This document shows, one piece after another, positions 7,362-45,201 of a stretch of DNA of 47,255 nt (its first letter is position 1; each line of letters opens with the position of its first letter). A program made the translations under genes and the position numbers. Where the stretch lies: positions 1 through 47,255 of the forward strand of contig CAMWKM010000004.1 of assembly GCA_947174835.1 (NCBI GenBank). The letters are read 5' to 3'. The DNA is from an uncultured Prevotella sp. GTDB taxonomy: Bacteria > Bacteroidota > Bacteroidia > Bacteroidales > Bacteroidaceae. Under the pieces are notes generated by a model, which did not search any database, was not told the DNA's origin, and worked only from the letters and a program-made list of their open reading frames with translations.

Positions 7362-8369
7362 ATGGCAACAATTCATGAAAAAATTTCAAATCTTGGTAAA
7401 AGAATCATTTCTGCTTTCATAAGGAACAGGCGTGACAAAATGTTCATGGTGCTGGCACAGCAGATAGTCAGTGAAGAGGCATCATATAAAAGTAAAAGTA
7501 CCATCGACAACTATCACACTGCATTACGTTCGTTTTCCTGTTTCACCGGCACGGATATCCTTCTGAAGGATATAACTCCGCAATTGATGGAACATTACCA
7601 ACAGCATCTGAAACTCAGTGGAATATGCCTCAACACCATATCATGCTATATGCGTTCGTTACGGACATTGTATAACAAGATCATAACGAAAAAGAAATTC
7701 AAGCCTGCAAAGCATCCTTTCTGCAATGTATATAGGGGCAAGACGAAAACGCAGAAGCGTTCAATCACCGATGCCGAGATCTTGCAGATAAAAAGACTCA
7801 AACTGCCACAACATTCTTATATAAAACTATGTCAGGATACGTTCCTATTCAGTTTCTATGCGTTGGGAATGCCTTTTGTAGATATCGTATATCTGAAACA
7901 CTCACAAATCAAGAACGGCGAGATTTCCTACTATCGCCATAAGAACAAACAGCCGGTGCACGTCCTCATTGAGCCGTGTATTCAGGAAATTATAGACAGA
8001 TATTACAACAGCCAACGCAAGTACATATTCCCCTTTATAACTTCCGACGACAAACAGATTGCCGAGATGCAGTATCTCAAGCATCTTGGGAGATACAACC
8101 GTAACTTGAAACGGATAGCGGCAATGGCAGGAGTGACGGCAAACATCACGTCCTATACCATGCGCCATACGTGGGCAAGTCTTGCGTTCAGAAACAACAT
8201 AGACCTGCCGATCATATCCAAGGCATTAGGACACACAAATACAAACACCACGATAACTTATATCCGCGAGATTGACGACACCCCCATAGCAGAGGCCAAC
8301 CGAAAACTAATAGAAGGGTTGCATTTTCTCATGACAAGTCGGGACGATAGCGAGAATGATAAGGAATAA
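7362..8369 (+). CDS. tyrosine-type site-specific recombinase/integrase (Bacteroidetes invertase-like)
   Basis: N-terminal SAM-like domain (SKSTIDNYHTALRSF), TSYTMRHTWASLAF box, SKALGHTNTNTTITYIRE with nucleophile Tyr. Confidence 0.92.
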   Translation: MATIHEKISNLGKRIISAFIRNRRDKMFMVLAQQIVSEEASYKSKSTIDNYHTALRSFSCFTGTDILLKDITPQLMEHYQQHLKLSGICLNTISCYMRSLRTLYNKIITKKKFKPAKHPFCNVYRGKTKTQKRSITDAEILQIKRLKLPQHSYIKLCQDTFLFSFYALGMPFVDIVYLKHSQIKNGEISYYRHKNKQPVHVLIEPCIQEIIDRYYNSQRKYIFPFITSDDKQIAEMQYLKHLGRYNRNLKRIAAMAGVTANITSYTMRHTWASLAFRNNIDLPIISKALGHTNTNTTITYIREIDDTPIAEANRKLIEGLHFLMTSRDDSENDKE

Positions 8370-10579: not shown

Positions 10580-11794
10580 ATGTTGGGAATTAAAGGACGG
10601 CAAGGAGAATGGTATGAAGAGACTTCTAAAAACATCACTTTTATTGTGACTAAGGATTGTCAATTAGCTTGCAAGTATTGTTATCTTGTAGGGAAGAACT
10701 CGAAAGAGAAAATGTCTTGGAAAACTGCTAAATTGGCTGTTGATTATATTTTAAGTTGTGAAAAAGAGATGACGGAAACTTCTGTCATATTTGATTTTAT
10801 AGGTGGTGAACCTTTTTTAGAAATCAATCTTGTTGATAGAATTTGTGATTATCTTAAGATACGTATGTATGAATTGAATCACCATTGGTTTAATTCGTAT
10901 CGGTTTAGCTTTACAACGAATGGACTCAATTATGATAGTCCTATGGTACAACAGTTTATAGCAAAGAATTATCATCATCTTAGCATTGTTATCACTATAG
11001 ATGGGAATAAACTCAAACATGATTTGAATCGAATATACAAAATAGTCGGGAAGGGCTCCTATGATGATGTTGTCAAGAATATTCCTCTTTGGTTAGAACA
11101 ATTCCCTGAATCTGGGACAAAAGTAACAATCAGTAGCACAGATATACCATATATCAAGGAAAGTGTATTGCACCTTTATTCTCTTGGCATACATGAAGTG
11201 CACATTAATGTCGTGTTTGAGAATGTATGGAAAGAAGACGATGATCAGTTATTTGAAGACCAGTTGACGCAATTGGCTGATGAAATAATAGACGGTGGGT
11301 ACTATAACGACTATTCTTGTTCATTTTTCTCAGAAAACATAGGAAAACCACTTGATAGGGTTTGGGACAACCAGAATTACTGTGGAGCAGGTATGATGCT
11401 GTCGGTTGATGCTGCAGGCAATTTTTATCCCTGTACTCGTTTCGCTGCCTACTCTCTTCGGTCAAAGAAGCCCATCATCATTGGCAATGTACGGGAGGGA
11501 ATTGATAAGAACAAGTTGCGTCCATTCTTGACGCTTGACCGAACCACGCAGTCGCGACAGGAATGCATTGATTGTGAGGTGGCCAGCGGTTGTGCCTGGT
11601 GCCAAGGTGAGAACTACGATGCAGCCGACACGAACACCATTTACCAGAGGGCAACAGCCATCTGCAAGATGCACAAGGCTCGTGTTCGTGCCAACAATTA
11701 CTACTGGAACAAGCTGTACAGGAAGCTGGAACTGGAGGGTATGCGTGAGGAGTTTGAGAATAGCAAACCGAAGTCAAACGATGTAATCTGCTGA
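10580..11794 (+). CDS. radical SAM/SPASM peptide maturase, CXXX-repeat target family
   Basis: CQLACKYC (CxxxCxxC), GGEPFLE, C-terminal SPASM-like YCGAGMMLSVDAAGNFYPC...CIDCEVASGCAWC. ATG at 10580 (MLGIKGRQGEW) in frame with the TTG at 10553. Confidence 0.9.
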   Translation: MLGIKGRQGEWYEETSKNITFIVTKDCQLACKYCYLVGKNSKEKMSWKTAKLAVDYILSCEKEMTETSVIFDFIGGEPFLEINLVDRICDYLKIRMYELNHHWFNSYRFSFTTNGLNYDSPMVQQFIAKNYHHLSIVITIDGNKLKHDLNRIYKIVGKGSYDDVVKNIPLWLEQFPESGTKVTISSTDIPYIKESVLHLYSLGIHEVHINVVFENVWKEDDDQLFEDQLTQLADEIIDGGYYNDYSCSFFSENIGKPLDRVWDNQNYCGAGMMLSVDAAGNFYPCTRFAAYSLRSKKPIIIGNVREGIDKNKLRPFLTLDRTTQSRQECIDCEVASGCAWCQGENYDAADTNTIYQRATAICKMHKARVRANNYYWNKLYRKLELEGMREEFENSKPKSNDVIC

Positions 11795-25014: not shown

Positions 25015-25190
25015 TTTCGATTATCTTTTGGTCGCGATTTGATTATCTTTTGACTTCGGTTTGATAATCTTTTCACTCCCGTTTGATTATCTTTTGCTCG
25101 CCATTTGATTATCTTTTTCAAGTCATTTGATTATCAATTGCCGACCATTTGATAATCAATTTTATTACACCCCCCATTTGATTATCTTTT
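25015..25190. repeat. tandem array of eight degenerate units TTTGATWATCTTTT-N8, 22-bp pitch
   Basis: GATWATC cores start at 25019, 25041, 25063, 25085, 25107, 25129, 25151 (all 22 bp apart) and 25180 (29 bp). Confidence 0.9.
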
Positions 25191-25323
25191 GGTCAATAAG
25201 ATGGCATTTTATTTATTATATAATAATGTATGCGTACATTTTATATAATATATAGCAGTCTCATCTAAAGGGAAATAATTCCAGAAGCTACTATTCTTTG
25301 AAATTGCTTTGCCTAAGATTAGT

Positions 25324-25551
25324 TCTCTTCAGGAGGTAGTTACGTTATTTTGCATTTTCATGCTTTTGGGGGCTTCCAAATTATTTTTTCATGGTTTTAA
25401 TACATGAAAAATTACTTTTTGATAGGAAAATTTGGATTACTTTTAAAATATTATGTATATTTCTTTAATTATTAAGAAATATTATGTACCTTTGCACCCT
25501 GTTACGAATTGGCTTTCTTCGATGTGTGTTTCTGCACACCTCCTGAAGAGA
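25324..25551. repeat. inverted repeat pair flanking the SusC1 promoter (putative invertible promoter 1)
   Basis: TCTCTTCAGGAGGT (25324-25337) is the exact reverse complement of ACCTCCTGAAGAGA (25538-25551). Confidence 0.6.
25464..25494 (+). promoter_or_regulatory. SusC1 promoter (TTTA-N19-TACCTTTG), currently facing SusC1
   Basis: TACCTTTG at 25487-25494 and TTTA at 25464-25467. Confidence 0.6.
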
Positions 25552-25609
25552 GGTATGCAGGAAAAGATAAAAGGATAATGAAATATCACAAATTAAAATA
25601 AATATTTAA

Positions 25610-28600
25610 ATGAAAAGAAAACTGGCAATGATGTTGATGTGCCTTTTGGTCAGTGTGACTACTGCCTTGGCACAGACAAAGGTTACAGGTACTGTCTTGG
25701 AAGATGGCACCGATGAACCTATCATTGGAGCCTCGGTAATGATTGCCGGCAGCAAGAAAGGTGTTACAACAGACATTAACGGACACTTCACGATAGAAGT
25801 TCCTGCCGGCAAGAAACTTACTTTCAGCTACGTTGGTATGCAACCTATCACCCTTGCTGCTAAGCAGCAGATGAAGGTTGTCATGAAGGCATCCAACACC
25901 ACTATCGACGAAGTGGTTGTCACAGGTATGCAGAAAACTGACAAGCGTCTCTTTACCGGAGCTTCATCAAAAATTGACGCAGACAAGACTCACCTCTCCG
26001 GTACAGTAGATGTCAGCCGCTCTCTCGAAGGTCGTGTGGCAGGTGTGCAGGTAACAAACGTCAGTGGCACGTTCGGTGCTTCTCCGAAGATCCGTGTTCG
26101 TGGTGCCACATCTATCTATGGTAACTCAAAGCCTCTCTGGGTGATTGATGGTGTTATCTATGAGGATAATGTTGATGTATCAGCAGACGAATTGTCCTCC
26201 GGCGATGCCAAGACCCTTATATCAAGTGCCGTGGCAGGCTTGAACTCTGATGACATTGAGTCGTTTACCATCCTGAAGGACGGTTCCGCTACATCTATCT
26301 ATGGTGCCCGTGCTATGGCAGGTGTGATTGTCATCACCACTAAACGCGGACAGAAAGGCCGTGCCAATGTAAGCTATACGGGTGAGTTCTCCACACGTCT
26401 GAAGCCGTCATACAATGACTACAACATCATGAACTCACAAGAGATGATGGGCGTGTACAAGGAAATGGCAAACAAGGGATGGCTCCAGTTGGAGAATCTT
26501 GTAAACGCCAAGAACACCGGTGTGTACGGATATATGTATAGGCAACTCCGCGCATTCGATGAGACGACAGGCAAGTTTGGACTGCCCAACACACAGGCAG
26601 CAATCAATGCCTACCTGCAGGAAGCAGAGTTCCGCAATACCGACTGGTTTGACCAGTTGTTCTCAAACAGCGTAACCCAGAACCATTCTGTAAGTCTTTC
26701 TATGGGTGGAGAGAAGTCACAGACCTACTTGTCGCTGTCTCTGATGGACGACCCCGGCCAGTATGTCAACCGCTCAAAGGTTCGCCGTTACACATTCAAC
26801 GGCAAGACCTCATACGATGTGCTGAGCAACCTTACCGTGAGACTTGCCGCACAAGGTAGCCACCGTGAGCAGGAAGCTCCCGGCTCCCTCAATCAGACTA
26901 CGGATGTCGTTACGGGTGAAGTGAAGCGCGACTTTGACATCAACCCGTTCTCGTATTCTCTGAATACCAGCCGCTGTCTTGATCCCAACATTGACTATAC
27001 CCGTTTCTATACAGGTTTCAATATCTTCAACGAACTGGAGAACAACTACAACGACATCAATGTAGACGAACTCATGTTCCGTGCGGAATTGGAGTATAAG
27101 CCGGTGAAGGGTCTTACGCTCAACGGACTTATCTCTACCCGTATGTCACGCACCAAGCGCCAGCACAATGTCATGGACGATTCAAACCAGGCCAATGCAT
27201 ACCGTGCCGGTGTCGATGCAACAGACGACAACTCCACAATCCGCAACTCTAACCCTCTGCTCTATACTGACCCGGACAATGAGCTTGCACTCCCGGAGAC
27301 CGTACTTCCTGAAGGTGGTATCAAGTATCAGTACGACAGTGAAATGCGTTCATACAACTATCGCTTCACAGCCGACTACCGCAATGTATGGAACGACCTC
27401 CACACGCTCAATGTCATGGCTGGTTCCGAGCTTTCTACCCTCAAGCGCGTAGAAACACACTGGACGGGTTGGGGCTACCAATTCAACAATGGCGGTATTG
27501 TCTATACACCGTATCTGTGGCTCAAGATGATGAACGAGGAGAACACTGACTACTTCTCTGAGGCATTCACACAGACTAATACGCTCGCATATTTCGGTAC
27601 TGCAACCTATAACTTTGATCAGCGCTACACCATCAACGGCACGTTCCGCTACGAAGGAACCAACCGCCTCGGTAAGGCAACCTCATCGCGCTGGCTTCCT
27701 ACATGGAACGTATCAGGTTCTTATGACGTCATCAATGAGAAGTTTATGAAGAACGCGCAGTCATGGCTTTCGCAGCTTAAGCTCCGCGCCTCATATTCGC
27801 TCACCGCTGATGCAGGTCCTTCGTTCGTAACGAATGCACAGACCGTTTATCACACAAAGAACACATGGCGTCCCACCACATCTGCTGCAGAGTCGCAGAT
27901 CTACATCGAGGATCTTGCCAATACCGAACTGACATACGAGAAGAAGCACGAGTTCAACATCGGTGTCGACTTCGGATTCCTCAACGATCGCATTGCAGTC
28001 AACTTCGATGCCTACTGGCGTAACAACTTCGACCTTATCGGTCGCACATACACGCAGGGTGCCGGTGGACAGATTGCCAAGTATGCCAACGTGGCCGACA
28101 TGAAGTCAAACGGTATGGAGTTTGGTATCTCTACTGTGAATATCAACAACAAGAACTTCAAGTGGACCTCTGATTTCATCTACTCTCACGCAAAGAACAA
28201 GATCACCAACCTTGAAACAGCATCACGCGCCATCGACCTTGTCAGTGGTCAGGGTTATGCCATCCAGGGCTATCCCGTACGTTCAATCTTCAGCTATCAG
28301 TTTGCAGGCTTGAACGACGAGGGTCTTCCTATGGTCTACAACGAAGAGGGTAAGGCCACAGTGGGTGACATTAACTTCCAGGAAACAGAAAACCTGACCG
28401 ACTTCCTCGTGTACGAAGGAGCATCAGACCCCACATGGTACGGTTCGTTCAACAACACGTTCACCTATAACTTCACTAACGGTGGAAAGCTCAACCTCGA
28501 TGTGTTCATCACATATTCAGGCGGCAACGTGGTGCGTCTCGACCCTGTCTTCAACTATTCTTATTCCGATTTGTCGGCACTTCCCAAAGAGTTCAAGAAC

Positions 28601-28969
28601 CGTTGGATGACCTCAGGCGACCAATTCATAACCAATATTCCTGCAATAGCTTCCCTCAACCAGCTTGACCGCTACGGCTCTACATCGCTGAAGACTGCAT
28701 ACAACGCCTACAACTACTCTACCGAGCGTATCGCAAAAGGCAACTTCATACGTCTCAAGGAGGTAGCTCTCTCGTATGCCTTCCCGCAGTCATGGCTCAA
28801 AAAGACCGTCATCCTGAACAGTGCTTCCCTGAAGCTCGCAACGACAAACCTCTGTCTGCTCTATGCTGACAAGAAGTTGAACGGACAGGATCCTGAGTTT
28901 ATCAACTCCGGCGGTGTGGCATCACCTATCACAAAGCAGTTCACTCTGACACTGCGTTGCGGATTCTAA
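25610..28969 (+). CDS. SusC/RagA family TonB-linked outer membrane protein
   Basis: CarboxypepD_reg-like TGTVLEDGTDEPIIGASVMI, plug IRVRGATSIYGNSKPLWVIDGV, SIYGARAMAGVIVITTKRG. Confidence 0.97.
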   Translation: MKRKLAMMLMCLLVSVTTALAQTKVTGTVLEDGTDEPIIGASVMIAGSKKGVTTDINGHFTIEVPAGKKLTFSYVGMQPITLAAKQQMKVVMKASNTTIDEVVVTGMQKTDKRLFTGASSKIDADKTHLSGTVDVSRSLEGRVAGVQVTNVSGTFGASPKIRVRGATSIYGNSKPLWVIDGVIYEDNVDVSADELSSGDAKTLISSAVAGLNSDDIESFTILKDGSATSIYGARAMAGVIVITTKRGQKGRANVSYTGEFSTRLKPSYNDYNIMNSQEMMGVYKEMANKGWLQLENLVNAKNTGVYGYMYRQLRAFDETTGKFGLPNTQAAINAYLQEAEFRNTDWFDQLFSNSVTQNHSVSLSMGGEKSQTYLSLSLMDDPGQYVNRSKVRRYTFNGKTSYDVLSNLTVRLAAQGSHREQEAPGSLNQTTDVVTGEVKRDFDINPFSYSLNTSRCLDPNIDYTRFYTGFNIFNELENNYNDINVDELMFRAELEYKPVKGLTLNGLISTRMSRTKRQHNVMDDSNQANAYRAGVDATDDNSTIRNSNPLLYTDPDNELALPETVLPEGGIKYQYDSEMRSYNYRFTADYRNVWNDLHTLNVMAGSELSTLKRVETHWTGWGYQFNNGGIVYTPYLWLKMMNEENTDYFSEAFTQTNTLAYFGTATYNFDQRYTINGTFRYEGTNRLGKATSSRWLPTWNVSGSYDVINEKFMKNAQSWLSQLKLRASYSLTADAGPSFVTNAQTVYHTKNTWRPTTSAAESQIYIEDLANTELTYEKKHEFNIGVDFGFLNDRIAVNFDAYWRNNFDLIGRTYTQGAGGQIAKYANVADMKSNGMEFGISTVNINNKNFKWTSDFIYSHAKNKITNLETASRAIDLVSGQGYAIQGYPVRSIFSYQFAGLNDEGLPMVYNEEGKATVGDINFQETENLTDFLVYEGASDPTWYGSFNNTFTYNFTNGGKLNLDVFITYSGGNVVRLDPVFNYSYSDLSALPKEFKNRWMTSGDQFITNIPAIASLNQLDRYGSTSLKTAYNAYNYSTERIAKGNFIRLKEVALSYAFPQSWLKKTVILNSASLKLATTNLCLLYADKKLNGQDPEFINSGGVASPITKQFTLTLRCGF

Positions 28970-29001: not shown

Positions 29002-30675
29002 ATGAAGAAACTATATATAAATAAGGTATTAGGAGCGTTCTTCTTTTCCGCTGCAATGCTTGGAATGACAGCCTGCAACGACAAGTTGGATGAACTTCCC
29101 GACAACCGAACAGACGTAAACAGTCCGGAGAAAATAGCACAGTTGCTCACATCCGGCTATCCGGAGTCCAGCCCTGCGGAGATTTGCGAGCTTTACGGAG
29201 ACAACTTCGTCGACAACAACGTATGTGTTCCCGGTGCTCACAAGGATGCCGATGCCAAGTTTCAGGAGGAGGCTTACAAGTGGGAGGATATCCGCAACTA
29301 CTCCACCGGTGACGACGATACGCCCTATCAGGTATGGGAAGCCTACTACAAAGGCATCGCTGTCTGCAACCATGCCATAGATGCCATGAAGAAGATGAGC
29401 GACGATCCCGCTCGCGACATTCGTCTCTCCGCTTACTGGGGTGAGGCTCATGTGCTCCGCGCATACCTCCACTTCGTCCTTGTCAACGTGTTTGCAGAGT
29501 CATATCAGGACGATGCAGCCAACGAGGAGCACAAGGGCATACCATACGTCACAAAGTCGGAGACCGTTGTCAATGTGGATTACTCCTCAAATGAGTTCCT
29601 GCATAACATCAAGGATACATACGCCCTTATCGAGAAAGACATCGTTGAAGGCATTGACCTCATCAAGGATGCAGCCTACTCCGTGCCGGCATATCATTTC
29701 AACAAGCGTGCCGCAAACGCCTTTGCCGCCCGTTTCTACCTCTTCACCCGCCAATATGAGAAGGCTCTCTTTTATGCCGATGAAGCATTGAAGGTGTCGA
29801 CACTTCGCAACTGGGCCATCCTGAATACCAATACCATTGAGACCTGTCTCCGTGGCTACAACGATGAGACCCTCACCTGCAACTACCTCATTCAGTCGAC
29901 ATACTCCACGCAGGACCGTATGCTCTCGGCATGTCGCTATGCCATCAACGACGGAAATGCCTCATGGGGCGTAGAGTCTACAAAGGACGTTATCTATGAG
30001 AGCGGCCCTTGCTGGTCGAACCGTCTCCCTGCGTTCAACGGTAAACTCTACAAATGGAGATCAGGTTCAGAGTATGGCACATGGCTTTTCCGCGTCTACG
30101 AGTATTTTGAATATTCAGACAAGATTGCCGGCATCGGCTGGGTACACATGCTCTATCAGCCGTTGACCGCCGACGAGACCATACTTGTCCGTGCAGAAGC
30201 CAAGCTCTATCTTGACGACAATGCAGGTGCCATCAGCGATCTCTCGCAGTGGGCAGCATCTCATCAGGCTCCCAATCCTCTGACGCTGACACGCATCAAG
30301 AATTTCTATGCAGGCAAGAATGCAACCAAATATGCCGGCGACATCAACCCCGACAAGATGGGCTTCGAGAAGATTCTCGCAGACGACGATCTCTCCGTGC
30401 TCTATTGCATCCTGCACTTCCGTCGCGTTGAGACCCATTATGAGGGCCTCCGCTGGTTCGACATCAAGCGCTACGGCATCAACATCAGACACGTCTACCG
30501 CAATGCACTTGACCTCAATGCTACTGCCGACGAACTGAGATACGACGATCCTCGCCGTGTGTTCCAGATTCCTACCAACGTCATCAATGCCGGTTATCCT
30601 GCCACAGACAGAACACCGTTGATAAAGGATGCCAACGATGAGTCCATACAGAATCCAACTCTCGTTACAGATTAA
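29002..30675 (+). CDS. RagB/SusD family nutrient uptake outer membrane lipoprotein
   Basis: Lipobox GMTACND; SusD-like HVLRAYLHFVLVNVFAESY, FDIKRYGI, FQIPTNVINAG. Confidence 0.95.
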   Translation: MKKLYINKVLGAFFFSAAMLGMTACNDKLDELPDNRTDVNSPEKIAQLLTSGYPESSPAEICELYGDNFVDNNVCVPGAHKDADAKFQEEAYKWEDIRNYSTGDDDTPYQVWEAYYKGIAVCNHAIDAMKKMSDDPARDIRLSAYWGEAHVLRAYLHFVLVNVFAESYQDDAANEEHKGIPYVTKSETVVNVDYSSNEFLHNIKDTYALIEKDIVEGIDLIKDAAYSVPAYHFNKRAANAFAARFYLFTRQYEKALFYADEALKVSTLRNWAILNTNTIETCLRGYNDETLTCNYLIQSTYSTQDRMLSACRYAINDGNASWGVESTKDVIYESGPCWSNRLPAFNGKLYKWRSGSEYGTWLFRVYEYFEYSDKIAGIGWVHMLYQPLTADETILVRAEAKLYLDDNAGAISDLSQWAASHQAPNPLTLTRIKNFYAGKNATKYAGDINPDKMGFEKILADDDLSVLYCILHFRRVETHYEGLRWFDIKRYGINIRHVYRNALDLNATADELRYDDPRRVFQIPTNVINAGYPATDRTPLIKDANDESIQNPTLVTD

Positions 30676-30696: not shown

Positions 30697-31965
30697 ATGA
30701 AGAATTATTCCAGATATATCATTCTCGGTCTCTTTGCAGGAGCTATGGCAGCCTGCTCCAGCGACGATGATTTCACAGAATCTATCTACGACACCAACAT
30801 ACCGGTGTACGACGAGACCGCAGCAACATATCCTTTCGACAAATGGATATACGACAACTTCACTGAGCCGTACAACGTGCAGATTCAGTACAAGTTCAAC
30901 TTCAACGCCTCTGACATGGACTTCCAGTTGTCACCGGCCGAGTACAATCGCTCACAGCTTCTCAGCCATTTCGTGCGCCATCTGTTCTACGATGTATATA
31001 CAGAGTGCCGTCCGGCTGACGAAGAGAACAAGGAGAACTTCATGAAGAAATACGGTCCGCGCCTGTTCCACTACATCGGTTCTTCCGGTTATTCTCCCTC
31101 TACGGGCACCGAAGTCCTCGGTACAGCCTCCGGCGGCGTGAAGATTACCCTTTACAACGTCAATGAGATGAAGCCCTACTCAGAGTCAGTGGAATATACT
31201 TCCGAAGACATTGACCAACTCAATGACCGCTATTTCCACACCATGCACCACGAGTTCTCGCACATCCTTCACCAGACAAAGTCATATCCCGTGACTTTCG
31301 GACAGGTGACTTCAGGCACATACGACGCCAGCAACTGGCAGGATCGCGACTCTACCACCACGCATCGCCTCGGCTATGTCACCCACTATGCGTCGTCTGC
31401 CAACACCGAAGACTTCGTAGAGGTGCTCTCTTGCATCATCACCGACACGGAATGGCGCTGGATGCACCGCCTCATCTCGGCCACGGTCAACGGTATGTGC
31501 AACGGTGACAAGGAGCAAATCCTTGACTTTGTCAACTCCCTTGGCATCAAGGATGTAGACGATCCCAATGCCCACTGGAACAATTTTGCCGTTTACACCG
31601 AGAGTGAGTACAACAGTGAAACAGGAAAGTACGAAGAGACAGGCAACAAAGTCCTTGACATCTACCGCAGCAACGAGACCGTTATCAATAAGGAATACAC
31701 GGCATACGTGGCACAATACAAGTACACCCTGTACAAGCAGTACAACAGTTTCAAGAGGTTCCTGAACGATGTCACCGTCAGCAGCCAAATGTCAAACGTC
31801 GGCATCAACGCCATGTTGAAGAAAATAAGCATTGCAACATCATGGTACAAGGAGAACTGGCAGTTTGACATCTATCAGATTCGCCGCGAACTGGCTAAGC
31901 GTCAGGCAGGAATCAATGACTATATCCATGACAAGAGTCAGGTCGTAATTTATGACTATCAGTAA
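30697..31965 (+). CDS. zinc metallopeptidase-like lipoprotein associated with SusCD (substrate import-associated type)
   Basis: Lipobox MAACSSDDD; HExxH motif HHEFSHILHQ. Confidence 0.85.
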   Translation: MKNYSRYIILGLFAGAMAACSSDDDFTESIYDTNIPVYDETAATYPFDKWIYDNFTEPYNVQIQYKFNFNASDMDFQLSPAEYNRSQLLSHFVRHLFYDVYTECRPADEENKENFMKKYGPRLFHYIGSSGYSPSTGTEVLGTASGGVKITLYNVNEMKPYSESVEYTSEDIDQLNDRYFHTMHHEFSHILHQTKSYPVTFGQVTSGTYDASNWQDRDSTTTHRLGYVTHYASSANTEDFVEVLSCIITDTEWRWMHRLISATVNGMCNGDKEQILDFVNSLGIKDVDDPNAHWNNFAVYTESEYNSETGKYEETGNKVLDIYRSNETVINKEYTAYVAQYKYTLYKQYNSFKRFLNDVTVSSQMSNVGINAMLKKISIATSWYKENWQFDIYQIRRELAKRQAGINDYIHDKSQVVIYDYQ

Positions 31966-31994
31966 CCGATACGCGAACGAAAACAAAAAGAATG

Positions 31995-33320
31995 ACAATG
32001 AAAAAATATATGATTTTCCGCGCGGCTGTCGCAATTCTGCTTCCGAGCGTCATGATGACCTCCTGCAAATTTGAGGAAGACGACTATTTCCCCGAAAGCG
32101 CAGCACTGCGTATTGAGAAGACAGCAAAAGAGATAAAGGCTAAACTCTGCGCTCCGTCTGCCGACGGAGAATATGGCTGGGTCATGCAGACATTCGTGGC
32201 CGGCAACGACTCCTCCAAGTTTGAGGGCTTCAATCTCTTTGCCAAGTTCTACGAAAACGGTAAGGTGCTCCTTGCCAGCGACCACCGTTATCTCCGTGAC
32301 GGAAACGCCAACCAGTACACCGAATCAACTTCTCTCTATGAGATGCTTCAGGAAGAGGGTCCGGTTCTCGCCTTCAACTCGTGGAACGACGTGCTCACTC
32401 CGCTGTCTGATCCCGTCAGCCCGGCCAATGCTCCCGAAGCTTTGGTCAAGGACGGTGTGGGACTTGGCGGTGATAACAACTTTGTAGTCATGAGCTACAG
32501 CGACGATGTCATCCGCCTTCGCGGTGAACGCCACCGTGCCATGAGCCGTCTCATCCGCTGCGATCGCCCGTGGGAGCAGTACATTGCCGACGTAAAGGAA
32601 CTGAAAGCAAAGATTACCAGCACCCTGATGCCCGGCCATTACTACATCGTCAACGAGACAGACACGCTGTATATGAAGAATCTCCGTGGCGGTGCAACCG
32701 TCGTGGGTGACCGTCTCAACTATCCTGCAAACTATACAGAGAAAGCCCTTGTCTTCACTCCTACAGGTATTTCTATGGAGGGCGGCATTGATTTCGTCGT
32801 TACGGAAGACGAGACGAAGCTCGTTTCCGGTGACAGTCTCCAGATTGTAGCCATGTGGGATCAGTACATTGTCGACCGCACCACGATATGGAACATTGAC
32901 AAAGAGACCTATTCCGACGGCATGAAAACCGTAGTTGATCAGATCAACACGGAAATTAAAAAGCACAATACGGCCTGGAGTGTAGCAGAGATCGGTCTCG
33001 GAAAATCATCCGGTGCCAATACCGTCAAAGGTATTGTCATTACATTCTATACCAACGCAGCGAAGACAAAGACAAATACCGTAGGTATAGAAGTGACATC
33101 CGAGCGCGTCGGATTCGGTAAGATTGCGCTTTCCGTAGCAGACGCTCCGGTTGTCGACAAGAATATGCAGACCGTAGCAAAGAAAGCCGCCAATATGCCG
33201 GAACTTGCAAAAGCGTTCGCTACAGAGATAGCAGGAACATACGATATCACTCCCGATAACTATTTCATGCCTTCCGGAGCGACGTTTACTGACGGAAACA
33301 AAACCCTTGTGTTGAAATAA
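31995..33320 (+). CDS. DUF4302-like lipoprotein
   Basis: Lipobox MMTSCKFEEDDYF; EKTAKEIKAKLCAPSADGEYGWVMQTF; operonic with SusCD. Confidence 0.7.
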   Translation, partial: TMKKYMIFRAAVAILLPSVMMTSCKFEEDDYFPESAALRIEKTAKEIKAKLCAPSADGEYGWVMQTFVAGNDSSKFEGFNLFAKFYENGKVLLASDHRYLRDGNANQYTESTSLYEMLQEEGPVLAFNSWNDVLTPLSDPVSPANAPEALVKDGVGLGGDNNFVVMSYSDDVIRLRGERHRAMSRLIRCDRPWEQYIADVKELKAKITSTLMPGHYYIVNETDTLYMKNLRGGATVVGDRLNYPANYTEKALVFTPTGISMEGGIDFVVTEDETKLVSGDSLQIVAMWDQYIVDRTTIWNIDKETYSDGMKTVVDQINTEIKKHNTAWSVAEIGLGKSSGANTVKGIVITFYTNAAKTKTNTVGIEVTSERVGFGKIALSVADAPVVDKNMQTVAKKAANMPELAKAFATEIAGTYDITPDNYFMPSGATFTDGNKTLVLK

Positions 33321-33359
33321 ATTATAATTTCTATTTTCTATTAATTAATTTTTTAAACG

Positions 33360-36056
33360 ATGAAGAAAGTTTTACTTCTCGCTGCTGCCGTACTTACCAT
33401 CGGCACAGCAACAGCCCAACTTGGGCTGAACGGTACTTTCGGAAAGCCCGTAAGCAACGCTCTCCACAAAGTGCTTGATGCAGTCAAAATCGATTCTCAG
33501 GACATCCGTGAGGCTAAGACTGCCAAAGTTGCCCGTGTCGGTTCTACCGAAGAAATGAAGGCCGTGGCAAAAGACATTAAGCCTGCCTTCGAGGGTGTTG
33601 CCGCTCCCGTTAAGCAGATTTCTTTATCAGGAGAATTTGTCCTTGCTCCTGAAAAGGCAGAGTTTATGAAGAAAATTGCTGCAAAGGCTCCTGCCATGAT
33701 AGGCGAGAAATATAACGCCAAGTGTGCTGTCTACCAACAGGGGGGATGGTATTGGTCAAACCCTTACATCATGGAGACGTTCGCTTATGAATCGGAAGGT
33801 GTGGAATACGCTTATATGATAGACGTCATTCCTGACAATTTCTCTGGTTGGGGAGTTCCTGCGTCGTACACATACAAAGAAAATGGTGATGGTACAACTG
33901 CAATCACCATCGCTCCACAGTGGATGGGAACGGAGCAAAATCTTGACATTTTTTTCCTTGACTACTCTGACCTCAGAAATGGCGGTGACGGTACTGTCAA
34001 GATGACTCTTGCTGCCGATGGCAATATCACATTTGATAATCCAGGTCATGTCGTAGGATATTACGCTACTCCTGCAGAGGAAGGTTATGACATTCTTACA
34101 CAAGGAGAGCCTCCATTCGTTCCCGAAAACATTGCAGGTGCTGTTGAACAGTGCCAGCAGGTAACATATACACTTCCTGAGCCTGATACTTTTGTGTCAG
34201 AGGTTGTATATACAGGCAAGGGATATGATGCAGGCGAAAAGACCAATGCCACTTGGGAGATGCAAATGGGTAAGGCAAAGGATAATGTAAATGTTATCCG
34301 TGATCTTGTGCCAAGTGTTACTGAAGATACAGGCATTCCTACAGACGTAGAGTACACCGTAGAGGGCGACAAGATTATCATACAGCCACAGAAGGTCGGT
34401 ATGTATAAGAGTTACTACCTTTACATCTTCGACTGGGATAGTGAGGATGGCACAATCACCCTTACAAAGGACGCTCAGGGTCATATCACAACACCTGAGG
34501 ATCTTACTATCGTAATCGGTGCATTCGCCACAGATGCATATACATCAGACTACTCAAGCGATGACTATCTTGGTTATTGGACACGTACAGAGGGTGTTGT
34601 TTACTATGCTGAGGATCAGGAAATCCCCAACCCTGCACCCGAAGTAATGTACGAGCCTGGCTACACAGCACTCCACGTTGGTATCTCAGAGAATGGCTAT
34701 ACATTGTATAATACATTGACTATCCTTCCTGGATATGCTGAGATTCCATACCTTAACACAACTGTTGACGAGGCAACATCTTGGTCTTGGGAAGTTTGTG
34801 ATAGTATCTATGATGCCGAGACCAAAACCTATTCTGCAGGCACTCCTGTTACAGGCACTGGTAAAAACTTCTCTTTCCTAACAGAAGGATCTGCAGAGTT
34901 CGGTGCTCCTGTACTTACAGGCGCAAATGGTGAACTCGTTTCTGCTCCATACACATGGGGTATATCTGAAAATGGATTCCCCTATCAGACTGTCGGTGAC
35001 TATATCGGAAGCTACTCAAGCGCATCTGCCGGTCAGTACACTGCAAGCGTATGCAACCCTGCAAACAAATTAGCATATTACTCTGCTCTTGGAACTCCCG
35101 ATGTCAATGCAAATGGTCTGGACGTCTCTACTATCTACACATATCAAGGCAAGCCTGCCGCTCCTCTCTTCTTCACTGGTTTGAGCCTTCTTGTAAAAGA
35201 CTTCACTGCACAGGCCGATTTCAATCTTACTGCCCGTATTGTCAAGGCTACGCGTTCTGCTTCTGGCCGTACCACATTCGGTGAGACAATCGCTTATGCT
35301 GACGCTACAGCCGAGAACGTAAATACAATAAGCGGCAGCGCTCTTTCTTTCATCAACTTCAACGACATGTATGTGCTTGATGAGGATGAGATGAGCCAGA
35401 CAATCGACCACCTCTTCATTGACGAGAGCTTCGCAATTGTCTTTGATAACTGGAACAATGGCACATTCTCATGTATGCCTTATGGTGAGTACAACTACAA
35501 TGCTAACGGTTTCTCAAACATCTTGTTTGAGCAGGCTGCCGCACCTGGTTCTCTGTACTCTTTCACAAACAACTACGCACACCTTTGCGTCGGCTTCAAT
35601 GATGCAGCTTATGGTTACCTGCATACAACCTCTGCAACCAATTTCACTGCCCTTGCTGCCGGTGAGGAGTTCACTATCTCTGTTGATGATGCTATGCTCC
35701 ACAGCGTCAATGAGGCTGGTGAGTCATCAGCACGCGTATTCGCGAGCGATGATTGCCCCGAGTGGATCACCCTTAGCGTAGCCAATGTCAACGAGAAGGC
35801 TACGGCTTTCGACATCAAGGTTACTGTTGAGAAGAACGAAGGTGCAGCACGTGAGGCTAAGTTCTACATCTATCAGGAGGGTGCCAAGATTGATGTTACC
35901 GTCAGCCAGACTGGCGATAGCGATGTCAATACCGGCATCAATGGTGTAAACGCAGACAAGGCTTCTGCTCCCCGCTACAATGCAGCAGGCCAGCGCGTCA
36001 ACACCAATGCAAAGGGAATTGTCATCTCTAATGGCAAGAAGCAGATTGCAAAATAA
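33360..36056 (+). CDS. secreted protein with BACON-like domain and Prevotella-type C-terminal sorting sequence
   Basis: Signal peptide; CPEWITLSVANVNEKATAFDIKVTVEKNEGAAREAKFYI..; C-terminus YNAAGQRVNTNAKGIVISNGKKQIAK. Confidence 0.65.
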   Translation: MKKVLLLAAAVLTIGTATAQLGLNGTFGKPVSNALHKVLDAVKIDSQDIREAKTAKVARVGSTEEMKAVAKDIKPAFEGVAAPVKQISLSGEFVLAPEKAEFMKKIAAKAPAMIGEKYNAKCAVYQQGGWYWSNPYIMETFAYESEGVEYAYMIDVIPDNFSGWGVPASYTYKENGDGTTAITIAPQWMGTEQNLDIFFLDYSDLRNGGDGTVKMTLAADGNITFDNPGHVVGYYATPAEEGYDILTQGEPPFVPENIAGAVEQCQQVTYTLPEPDTFVSEVVYTGKGYDAGEKTNATWEMQMGKAKDNVNVIRDLVPSVTEDTGIPTDVEYTVEGDKIIIQPQKVGMYKSYYLYIFDWDSEDGTITLTKDAQGHITTPEDLTIVIGAFATDAYTSDYSSDDYLGYWTRTEGVVYYAEDQEIPNPAPEVMYEPGYTALHVGISENGYTLYNTLTILPGYAEIPYLNTTVDEATSWSWEVCDSIYDAETKTYSAGTPVTGTGKNFSFLTEGSAEFGAPVLTGANGELVSAPYTWGISENGFPYQTVGDYIGSYSSASAGQYTASVCNPANKLAYYSALGTPDVNANGLDVSTIYTYQGKPAAPLFFTGLSLLVKDFTAQADFNLTARIVKATRSASGRTTFGETIAYADATAENVNTISGSALSFINFNDMYVLDEDEMSQTIDHLFIDESFAIVFDNWNNGTFSCMPYGEYNYNANGFSNILFEQAAAPGSLYSFTNNYAHLCVGFNDAAYGYLHTTSATNFTALAAGEEFTISVDDAMLHSVNEAGESSARVFASDDCPEWITLSVANVNEKATAFDIKVTVEKNEGAAREAKFYIYQEGAKIDVTVSQTGDSDVNTGINGVNADKASAPRYNAAGQRVNTNAKGIVISNGKKQIAK

Positions 36057-36095
36057 CAACCGACGGTATAGGTTTCCTATACTTGAACGATAACA

Positions 36096-36134
36096 AAAAG
36101 GTGGCAGGCTCCCGAAAAAAGCCTGTCACCTTTT
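36096..36134 (+). terminator. intrinsic terminator
   Basis: AAAAGGTGGCAGGCT / AGCCTGTCACCTTTT, 15-bp stem with one G-T pair. Confidence 0.85.
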
Positions 36135-36149
36135 ACCGCTTTTAATACT

Positions 36150-38402
36150 ATGATGGTAAAGAAAATCGTATCAATCCTATTCTTTCTTTCCGCCATGATG
36201 ACGGCAGATGCCGTTCCCATGTACCCCCATCCCGTGAAACTCACCCAACCTGACGGCACGGAGATAACGGTAGTAGGTCATGGCGACGAGTATTGCAACT
36301 ACCTTACTACTCAGGATGGCTACACCATCGTGAAGGACGAGGCCGGCTATTTCCGTTATGCGGAGTTGAAAGAGGAAAAACTTGTGGCCACAGACATCGT
36401 TGCCCACGAGCCGGGAATGCGCTCGGCCACGGAGACAACCTATCTGCTCAAAGCCGAAAAGCACCTCGCTCCGGCCAGAAACACCGACCTGAGACCTCTG
36501 CGCACCTTTGAGGGAACGGCATCGAGAAGTGTCGGACACACTGCCGACGACGGCCCTCTGCCGCTCATGCGTCCGAACTTCAACCTCGAAAACTTCCGCG
36601 GCCTGCTCATCCTTGCCAACTATAATGACTGCAAGTTCCGCATGGGCGACGACGGCATCAGGTATGTCTACGAAGGAATGATGAATGAAGAGAACTACAG
36701 GGGCTACAATGACGGTGCGTCGGGCTTCCAGTCTTGCACCGGTTCGCTGTATGATTACTTCAGCGATAACTCCTACGGAGTGTTCGCTCCGAAGTTCGAT
36801 ATTGTGGTTGTCAACGTCAACTACTCCATGTTCGACATGAAGGGCACCGAAAATACATACGCCATTGCCACTGCCGCAGCGCGGGCTGCCGATGCTGCCG
36901 GTGTCGATTTCTCGAAATATGATGCCGACAACGACGGCATGGTCGATATGTTCTACATTGTCTATCCCGGCTATGCCGCCAACTATTCCGGCAATGACTC
37001 CCGCCTGTTGCACGCTCATGCCACGTCGTTAGACTGGCGTAACGTGGTCATCGACGGCAAGCGCCTCGGTCGCTACGCCTGCTCCACGGAGTTGTACGGC
37101 TGGGAATCGCTCGGCCATACCATGCTCAACGGCATCGGCACGATATGCCATGAGTTCTCTCATGTGCTTGGCTACAGCGACCATTACGACACTCACTACA
37201 ACGGTTACGAGCAGCCCGGCGACTGGGACGTGATGGCCGGCGGCAGCTACAACGGCCTGTATGGCAGGACTCCCGCAGGCTACAATGCCTACGAGCGCCT
37301 CACCGGAGGCTTCCTCAATCCCATTGAAATCAGCGGCATGGCAGGCGAAGTGCTCTCGCTGAACGCTCTTGAGATGGAGGCAAGGGCCTATCGCATCAAC
37401 TCTATGCAGGAAAAAGTGTTCTTCCTGATAGAGAATCGTCAGCGCACGAAATGGGATGCCGCCCTTCCGGGCACGGGAATGTTGGTGTGGCGCGTGGACA
37501 GTACATCTACTGCTCCGTGGGACAACAACACCGTAAACGCAACCCAACGCTCGTATTTCAGGCTCGTGCGTGCCAACGGATGGAAGACCGACATGGCCGA
37601 TTCGCAGTCTGATCCCTTCCCGGGAAACACTAATGTGACGCTCATCACCAACACTTCCACGCCTGCCAACCTGAAGACACACGACGGATATAAGTCGCCC
37701 GTGGAGTTGCGCAACATCGTGCAGCAGTATGAGGTCGTCAGTTTCAAGGTCGTCGACCCCGATGCCGACAAGCAGATCCCGGAGGGCGCACTGTTCTATG
37801 AGAGCTTCAACGACTGCGCCGGCACAGGCGGCAATGATGGAATCTTCGATGCTACCATGTCGGCTTCGCGTCTCTTTACCGACAACGACGGCTGGACTAC
37901 GACCAAACCCTTCGGTGCTTTGGAGTGCGCCTTCTTCGGTTCGGCCACCCAAAACGGTGCCGCCACGACTCCGGCCCTTGAGCTTGAAGACGGAAAATCA
38001 TACACTTTATCCTTCAAGGTGGCTCCCTACGAGGGCGACGGAACGCGACTTGCCATAGCAGTCACCACCGGTGATGCCCTGATTGTCGACGATGCCGCAG
38101 CAGACAGTGAGCCGTCACAGACCGTGACGATGGACATGGAGGGTGGAAAATGGAACGAATGTAGCCTGACGCTGACAGGAACAGGCAAGTGCAACCTCCG
38201 TTTCCGCGGTGCCACAGGTCCGGTGAAGCGTTTCTTCCTCGACGAGGTTCTGCTCGTAGAGAAGATACCGACAGGCATCACGGAGCTTCCCGTCATGTCT
38301 CCTGCACAGCGCAACAACACCATCTACAACCTTTCCGGCCAGCGCGTAGGCAACGATTGGAAGGGCATCAGAATCGTAAACGGCAAGAAGACAATCAAGT
38401 AG
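36150..38402 (+). CDS. M6 family metalloprotease domain protein with C-terminal sorting sequence
   Basis: GTICHEFSHVLGYSDHYDTHYNGYEQPGDWDVMAGGSY; C-terminus YNLSGQRVGNDWKGIRIVNGKKTIK. Confidence 0.92.
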   Translation: MMVKKIVSILFFLSAMMTADAVPMYPHPVKLTQPDGTEITVVGHGDEYCNYLTTQDGYTIVKDEAGYFRYAELKEEKLVATDIVAHEPGMRSATETTYLLKAEKHLAPARNTDLRPLRTFEGTASRSVGHTADDGPLPLMRPNFNLENFRGLLILANYNDCKFRMGDDGIRYVYEGMMNEENYRGYNDGASGFQSCTGSLYDYFSDNSYGVFAPKFDIVVVNVNYSMFDMKGTENTYAIATAAARAADAAGVDFSKYDADNDGMVDMFYIVYPGYAANYSGNDSRLLHAHATSLDWRNVVIDGKRLGRYACSTELYGWESLGHTMLNGIGTICHEFSHVLGYSDHYDTHYNGYEQPGDWDVMAGGSYNGLYGRTPAGYNAYERLTGGFLNPIEISGMAGEVLSLNALEMEARAYRINSMQEKVFFLIENRQRTKWDAALPGTGMLVWRVDSTSTAPWDNNTVNATQRSYFRLVRANGWKTDMADSQSDPFPGNTNVTLITNTSTPANLKTHDGYKSPVELRNIVQQYEVVSFKVVDPDADKQIPEGALFYESFNDCAGTGGNDGIFDATMSASRLFTDNDGWTTTKPFGALECAFFGSATQNGAATTPALELEDGKSYTLSFKVAPYEGDGTRLAIAVTTGDALIVDDAAADSEPSQTVTMDMEGGKWNECSLTLTGTGKCNLRFRGATGPVKRFFLDEVLLVEKIPTGITELPVMSPAQRNNTIYNLSGQRVGNDWKGIRIVNGKKTIK

Positions 38403-44571: not shown

Positions 44572-44727
44572 AAATCTCTCTCTTTTTTTTGTTTGTAAAT
44601 GTTATTTGTTGTATTTATTATTGTCCTTTACTAAAAAAGGCATCCTATTTTATGTCTTGTCTCATAACCTTAAATGTACACGTACATTATTATAATATTT
44701 TTGCGTCATTTTATGCTGCCGCATACC

Positions 44728-45116
44728 TCTGCGCCCGAGGTGTGCAGAGACATACCGAACAAAGGTAGTCTAATGCAGGGTGCAAAGTTACGCAATAGTT
44801 TTAAATAATCCAAACATATTTTTAAAAAAATAAAATATTAGGGGGTAAATGTATCAAAAATCAACTAAAAATGGCCAAAAGAGTAAAAAAATTAAGTTTA
44901 TTGTGTAATTCTGTTTCACTTTATTCAAATTCGTCTTCGCAGGAAACTGATGGTATTCCTGTTGGATTCAGCAGGTCGTCAGTCTTCCATTTTGCACATA
45001 TAAGTCAGCCGATTCGGTAGACCATTGTGTCATAATATTTTGTACATTAAAGGAGAAAACCATTTTTTTTGCTATAGTCCGTGCTATTCTGTGCCTCTGC
45101 ACACCTCGGGCGCAGA
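44728..45116. repeat. 22-bp perfect inverted repeat pair flanking the SusC2 promoter (putative invertible promoter 2)
   Basis: TCTGCGCCCGAGGTGTGCAGAG (44728-44749) and its exact reverse complement CTCTGCACACCTCGGGCGCAGA (45095-45116); enclosed segment 44750-45094. Confidence 0.75.
44783..44814 (-). promoter_or_regulatory. SusC2 promoter (TTTG-N20-TAACTTTG), currently facing SusC2
   Basis: Plus-strand CAAAGTTA at 44783-44790 and CAAA at 44811-44814. Confidence 0.75.
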
Positions 45117-45201
45117 ATTATGCTATATATATTAAAATGTACGCATACATTATATATATAAAGACAGGATGCCTTTTAATTAAGGATAATAAACATACTA
45201 A

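Follow-up and report, generated by a model that had tools for sequence, protein, structure and literature searches.

A putative invertible promoter of a Prevotella SusC/SusD operon and a proposed family of transporter switches separated by their core sequences

The SusC1 operon of an uncultured Prevotella species is very probably controlled by an invertible promoter, a phase switch at positions 25321–25560 of the 47,255-nucleotide stretch of DNA analysed here (hereafter the window). An initial annotation, made from the DNA letters alone, had proposed such a promoter upstream of SusC1. The reading is supported by comparison with relatives, in which recombinase genes are linked to sites of the same type, a cassette is found inverted between species and one genome (G318) holds several site pairs; inversion at SusC1 itself is what we infer from these comparisons.

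Inverted sites flank the SusC1 promoter

The features of the SusC1 locus are as follows.

25321–25337, minus strand: distal recombination site (outer arm AGTTC, degenerate; core TCTTCAG; inner arm GAGGT), from sequence, the 14-nt exact inverted repeat and shuffles
25338–25537, no strand: putatively invertible 200-bp segment with the SusC1 promoter, in the ON orientation as assembled, between the two 17-bp site cores
25487–25494, plus strand: –7 box TACCTTTG of the SusC1 promoter, from a scan of both segment strands
25532–25560, plus strand: proximal recombination site CTGCACACCTC-CTGAAGA-GAGGTATGCAG in the SusC1 mRNA leader, from sequence and a genome-wide perfect motif match
25610–28969, plus strand: SusC1, a SusC/RagA-family TonB-linked outer membrane protein (TIGR04056, 645 bits; Pfam Plug and CarbopepD_reg_2)
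29002–30675, plus strand: SusD1 (PF14322)
30697–38402, plus strand: rest of the putative operon, encoding Peptidase_Mx1, DUF4302, BACON and Peptidase_M6 proteins (Pfam)

Read directly, the SusC1 leader carries a perfect 11-7-11 site. A repeat search identified TCTCTTCAGGAGGT at 25324–25337 as the exact reverse complement of 25538–25551 (14 nt, 100% identity, 200 nt between the arms), and both elements lie precisely where the initial annotation had placed them. The full distal site, AGTTC-TCTTCAG-GAGGT, reads ACCTC-CTGAAGA-GAACT when inverted. It is perfect over the inner arm and core but degenerate in the outer arm, as had also been claimed, where three of five inner positions match (GAACT versus GAGGT). 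The –7 box, likewise present as described, points to SusC1 (ATG at 25610) and is 51 bp from the proximal site. When both strands of the segment were scanned, no second TAnnTTTG was found near either segment end and none faced away from SusC1. Because this Bacteroidota –7 box faces SusC1, the assembled state would be ON. The operon content (SusD, Peptidase_Mx1, DUF4302, BACON and an M6 peptidase) suggests a protein- or peptide-degrading SusCD locus that would take up protein-derived nutrients.

Bacteroidales tyrosine-recombinase invertible promoters are characterized by a promoter set between inverted sites ahead of a surface-protein gene, by inverted arms around a 6–8-bp core common to both sites, and by the presence in the genome of a tyrosine recombinase from the matching family. 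SusC1 has the first of these and, with a degenerate distal outer arm, the second; the protein encoded at 7362–8369 provides the third. A shufflon would need at least three same-core sites in one cluster, and among the matches found the core CTGAAGA occurs at two sites only.

Chance similarity of the distal copy, a possibility raised in the initial annotation, is extremely improbable. The region is AT-rich and contains many short repeats, but when the 532 bp upstream of SusC1 were dinucleotide-shuffled 5,000 times and scored for their match to the inverted site, the longest match was 11 and none reached the 14 observed; moreover, the same design is repeated at the SusC2 locus. Allowing up to three mismatches, the 25-bp motif occurs three times in the window versus 0.07 expected. 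The genome-wide search that the initial annotation had proposed found perfect copies at only three places in the 2.68-Mb genome, every one a susC leader: SusC1, SusC2 and a third susC (SusC3) on contig C100, 380 bp from the contig end. Matches on contigs C26 and C49 were set aside, having no inverted partner in the stretches examined or a coding-like context.

A palindrome within a leader might instead be an RNA hairpin acting in mRNA stability or attenuation, and the 29-nt site does fold to –12.8 kcal/mol (z –3.9). However, any perfect recombination site must fold as a hairpin, and this explanation, which we consider very unlikely, accounts neither for the inverted partner with the same asymmetric 7-nt loop nor for the recombinase-enclosing pairs and between-species inversion described below.

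Sites of the same type enclose recombinases in relatives

One further feature of the window is central to the comparison.

7362–8369, plus strand: candidate trans-acting tyrosine recombinase for both loci, 335 aa (PF13102 and PF00589; homologues enclosed by the same site type)

Homologues of this protein at E ≤ 1e-60 occur in 52 of 399 sampled genomes of the genus, and their neighbourhoods repeat one layout: a leftward susC, a site, the recombinase, a site and a rightward susC. We scanned 46 recombinase loci without specifying the arms, asking for palindromic 5-bp arms, a core of 4–10 and an inverted partner. In 24 of the 46 the scan recovered ACCTC arms around a 7-bp core, together with their inverted partner; the other frequent arm, CACCT with a spacing of 9, is the ACCTC motif shifted by one base, and each remaining arm appeared in at most two loci. 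An ACCTC-N7-GAGGT pair encloses the recombinase in about two dozen distinct cassettes. Of these, 20 are flanked by susC at both ends, and the cores are nearly all different. The count derives from 27 rows, three of which (L067, L122 and L236) are false matches within susC homology; other scans gave true pairs for L067 and L236. Cultivable relatives such as Prevotella sp. P6B1 and Xylanibacter rodentium are among the cassette carriers. Cassettes between two divergent susC genes number about 20 distinct examples of 1.1–4.1 kb in Prevotella-type genomes, and most site pairs in relatives are perfect. In all 24 recombinase-containing cassettes, one end and one end only has a TAnnTTTG within 60 bp (the right end in 14, the left in 10), as predicted for a promoter aimed at one of two genes, which argues that the cassette is an either/or selector.

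A segment need not contain the enzyme gene: in a SusC1 relative (L181), two such sites bound a 230-bp segment that holds just a promoter, and the recombinase is encoded on a different contig. A genus-wide search with the long-arm motif at two mismatches returned mostly unrelated matches, since arm sequences diverge from one species to the next; its few true pairs led to cassettes.

Inversion itself is visible between species. The orthologous cassettes L130 and L131 share a 1.2-kb segment whose 95% identity shows only after one of the copies has been inverted; it is bounded by ACCTC-TGCCTCA-GAGGT sites, and the right flank is 89% identical and collinear over 4.8 kb. The named contigs L221 and L222 gave the same outcome: with their recombinases aligned, the flanks were crossed over. 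Homologous recombination could have flipped the L131 cassette, because its susC leaders form a long inverted repeat, but the position of the breakpoints at the sites favours site-specific exchange.

Several cassettes differ in other respects. In L204, L205 and L206, and likewise in L208 and L217, the right flank is 98–99% identical between species and the left susC is strongly different, being either unrelated beyond the leader or about 76–84% identical; one partner transporter appears to have been swapped out, perhaps through the homologous leaders. Prevotella denticola NCTC13067 (L251, 6890–9286) has a small inverted pair just 3′ of its recombinase, before a gene for a BspA-type leucine-rich-repeat protein, and similar small pairs follow recombinases in other Bacteroidota. 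A goat-rumen contig labelled Spirochaetaceae (L192) carries a Prevotella-type recombinase and site pair, its segment 94.5% identical to that of L108, and was probably misbinned or transferred.

A candidate for a recombinase acting in trans

The 7362–8369 protein is the sole match in this genome at E ≤ 1e-60. It is 43–49% identical to the site-linked recombinases in the alignment. In the tree it groups with two 70% homologues, L188 and L189, inside a wider group that includes most site-linked rows, with moderate support for the deeper forks. No complete site pair was found in the neighbouring DNA of either close homologue; in L188, a same-arm site with 8-bp spacing lies at a susC just upstream of the recombinase, and the contig ends soon after. 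A proline occupies the position of residue 171 in 13 of 13 aligned recombinases, where XerA has the first catalytic arginine (GMPFVD versus GLRVSE). A similar loss is known from IntDOT.

A real switch might be driven by another enzyme, such as the contig C34 protein (31–35% identical), given that the genome has five PF00589 matches and that trans action is not assignable from sequence alone. We regard this as improbable: the C34 protein sits in the tree with Rikenellaceae and Muribaculaceae rows, none of which yielded an ACCTC-N7-GAGGT pair, in contrast to the window protein, which belongs to that wider group holding most site-linked rows.

The core as a putative locus address

Arms and cores are also separated within G318, where closely similar arms (of the TCCACCTC/GAGGTGGA type) recur in five inverted pairs, each with a core of its own. 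Two pairs lie between divergent susC genes, bounding segments of 230 and 284 bp without a recombinase, and one encloses a recombinase. The pattern matches that of the window, where SusC1 and SusC2 have common arms and different cores. At SusC2, for which the initial annotation had claimed the same arms and another core, the pair is likewise real, with the core TGCGCCC.

44721–44745, minus strand: SusC2 proximal site, core TGCGCCC, from motif searches in the window and genome
44742–45102, no strand: SusC2 promoter segment, 361 bp, putatively invertible, with –7 boxes facing SusC2, from sequence and a promoter scan
45099–45123, plus strand: SusC2 distal site, outer arm GAATT degenerate, from the motif search

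Tyrosine recombinases generally require an identical overlap for strand exchange, so a distinct core plausibly prevents recombination between loci. The 7-bp core thus looks like a locus address. The SusC2 core recurs on contig C100, at SusC3, and as far as the site's outer edge the leaders of SusC2 and SusC3 are nearly the same; because core and leader are both common to them, the two loci could in principle trade promoters over long distances. The SusC3 site (L013, 10665–10876) has no partner before the contig end, and the –7 box beyond it points away, toward a tRNA-Pro gene.

Taken together, these comparisons lead us to propose a locus-addressed switch family in Prevotella-type bacteria, in which self-contained either/or cassettes coexist with promoter-only derivatives that a single enzyme flips in trans; the 7-bp core would separate the loci, and same-core loci such as SusC2 and SusC3 could exchange promoters. 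We consider the case for this broader picture evenly balanced.

Origin and state of the proposed SusC1 switch

Two elements lie beyond the distal sites of the window loci.

25225–25240, minus strand: AATGTACGCATACATT beyond the distal SusC1 site, probable leader remnant of a lost second susC, from genome copies and flank resemblance
45136–45151, plus strand: leader-type element AATGTACGCATACATT beyond the SusC2 distal site, from genome copies and flank resemblance

AATGTACGYRTACATT is present at four places in the genome, namely the two distal flanks, the SusC2 leader and one position on contig C43. The SusC1 and SusC2 distal flanks resemble each other (z 8.3), as do the SusC2 leader and the SusC2 distal flank (z 6.7). 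Beyond the distal SusC1 site there is no susC; the DNA there holds the leader-like remnant, a 22-bp repeat array and an EPSP-synthase gene. The 200-bp SusC1 segment is too short to hold a recombinase gene, so the Hin-like arrangement seen in relatives is absent here. We consider it likely that the SusC1 and SusC2 loci are shrunken either/or cassettes that have lost the recombinase and second susC, a moderate inference in that the flank resemblance is modest and the DNA AT-rich. The ancestor of the SusC1 locus would then probably have been a self-contained cassette with recombinase and promoter between two divergent susC genes.

The tandem array upstream of the SusC1 locus (25016–25195) has a unit of TTTGATTATCTTTTG plus seven variable bases, and similar units occur at the end of contig C100 (L013, about 10995–11045) and on C43 (L304, 421–470).

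Four points weigh against a SusC1 switch: the single orientation seen for this locus, the weak outer arm, the 43–49% recombinase identity and the absence of sites upstream of the nearest SusC1 orthologues. In those orthologues, G060 and G144 (84% DNA identity), the upstream DNA is unrelated and, when checked for an inverted copy, had no sites; nor was an ACCTC-type pair found at divergent SusC1-type pairs in L163, L164, L168 and L178. At the L164 pair (1326–1637), a 15-bp inverted repeat, GCAAAGGTAATACTT, overlaps the likely promoters.

SusC1 may alternatively be a fossil switch that once inverted and is now fixed ON, its distal site having decayed. The degenerate outer arm fits such a history, as do its recurrence at both window loci and the absence of a second susC, which would keep that arm under selection. 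Yet decay would not be expected to spare the core and inner arm, both of which remain exact. The L111/L198 cassette, moreover, has AATTC-type external arms at both sites while being otherwise intact, which means that weakness of an outer arm does not by itself prove decay. We therefore regard a fossil as rather unlikely and prefer the invertible promoter, although the degenerate arm means that it may be slow or locked ON.

Discussion

In the mechanism that we propose, a tyrosine recombinase, most likely the 7362–8369 protein acting in trans, would bind the ACCTC/GAGGT arms and exchange strands across the 7-bp core. Because the two SusC1 sites have an identical core in inverted orientation, exchange would flip the 200-bp segment, converting the assembled ON state into an OFF state in which the operon has no promoter. 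With the core as address, one enzyme could serve several loci without joining them.

Several known systems resemble parts of this scheme. In Escherichia coli, fimS is a short promoter-only segment between inverted sites that is flipped by the tyrosine recombinases FimB and FimE. SusC1 has the same short promoter-only design, but fimS has adjacent dedicated recombinases, whereas the candidate enzyme of SusC1 would act from a distance of about 17 kb and on two or more loci whose cores differ. The Salmonella Hin/H2 invertible segment also contains a promoter, one orientation expressing one antigen, and Hin is a serine recombinase. The cassettes of the relatives are similar in layout, with the invertase gene inside the invertible segment as in Hin/H2 (PMC5903667), but have a tyrosine recombinase and two divergent susC genes, and the window locus has no recombinase inside. 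Mpi of Bacteroides fragilis acts in trans on many invertible capsule promoters (PMC4747536), as one enzyme would here; it is a serine recombinase, and our candidate is a tyrosine recombinase with different sites.

Closest are the B. fragilis tyrosine recombinases Tsr0667 and Tsr19/BF2766, which, like the proposed SusC1 system, control surface proteins by inversion, Tsr19/BF2766 acting on local and distant promoters, one enzyme serving several distant regions (PMC4747536). Tsr0667 is described as carrying out shufflon-type multiple inversion at SusC/SusD clusters (PMC4747536), and by that description it differs from the two-site promoter segments or two-gene selectors reported here, with common arms and a different 7-bp core per locus. 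In B. fragilis, tyrosine-recombinase inversion at SusC/SusD clusters and distant promoters is established (PMC4747536), and there are known cases of a recombinase lying within an invertible segment (PMC5903667). A literature search whose scope excluded subscription papers and preprints returned no description of such cassettes in Prevotella.

SusC/SusD pairs determine which nutrients enter these gut and rumen bacteria and are exposed to phages and host immunity. A transporter-choice switch in which the core separates loci would provide testable rules, with the arms specifying the enzyme and the core the partner, and such rules would make many Prevotella-type switch loci readable from sequence. 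Such a switch would also explain possible differences in diet use between isogenic cells.
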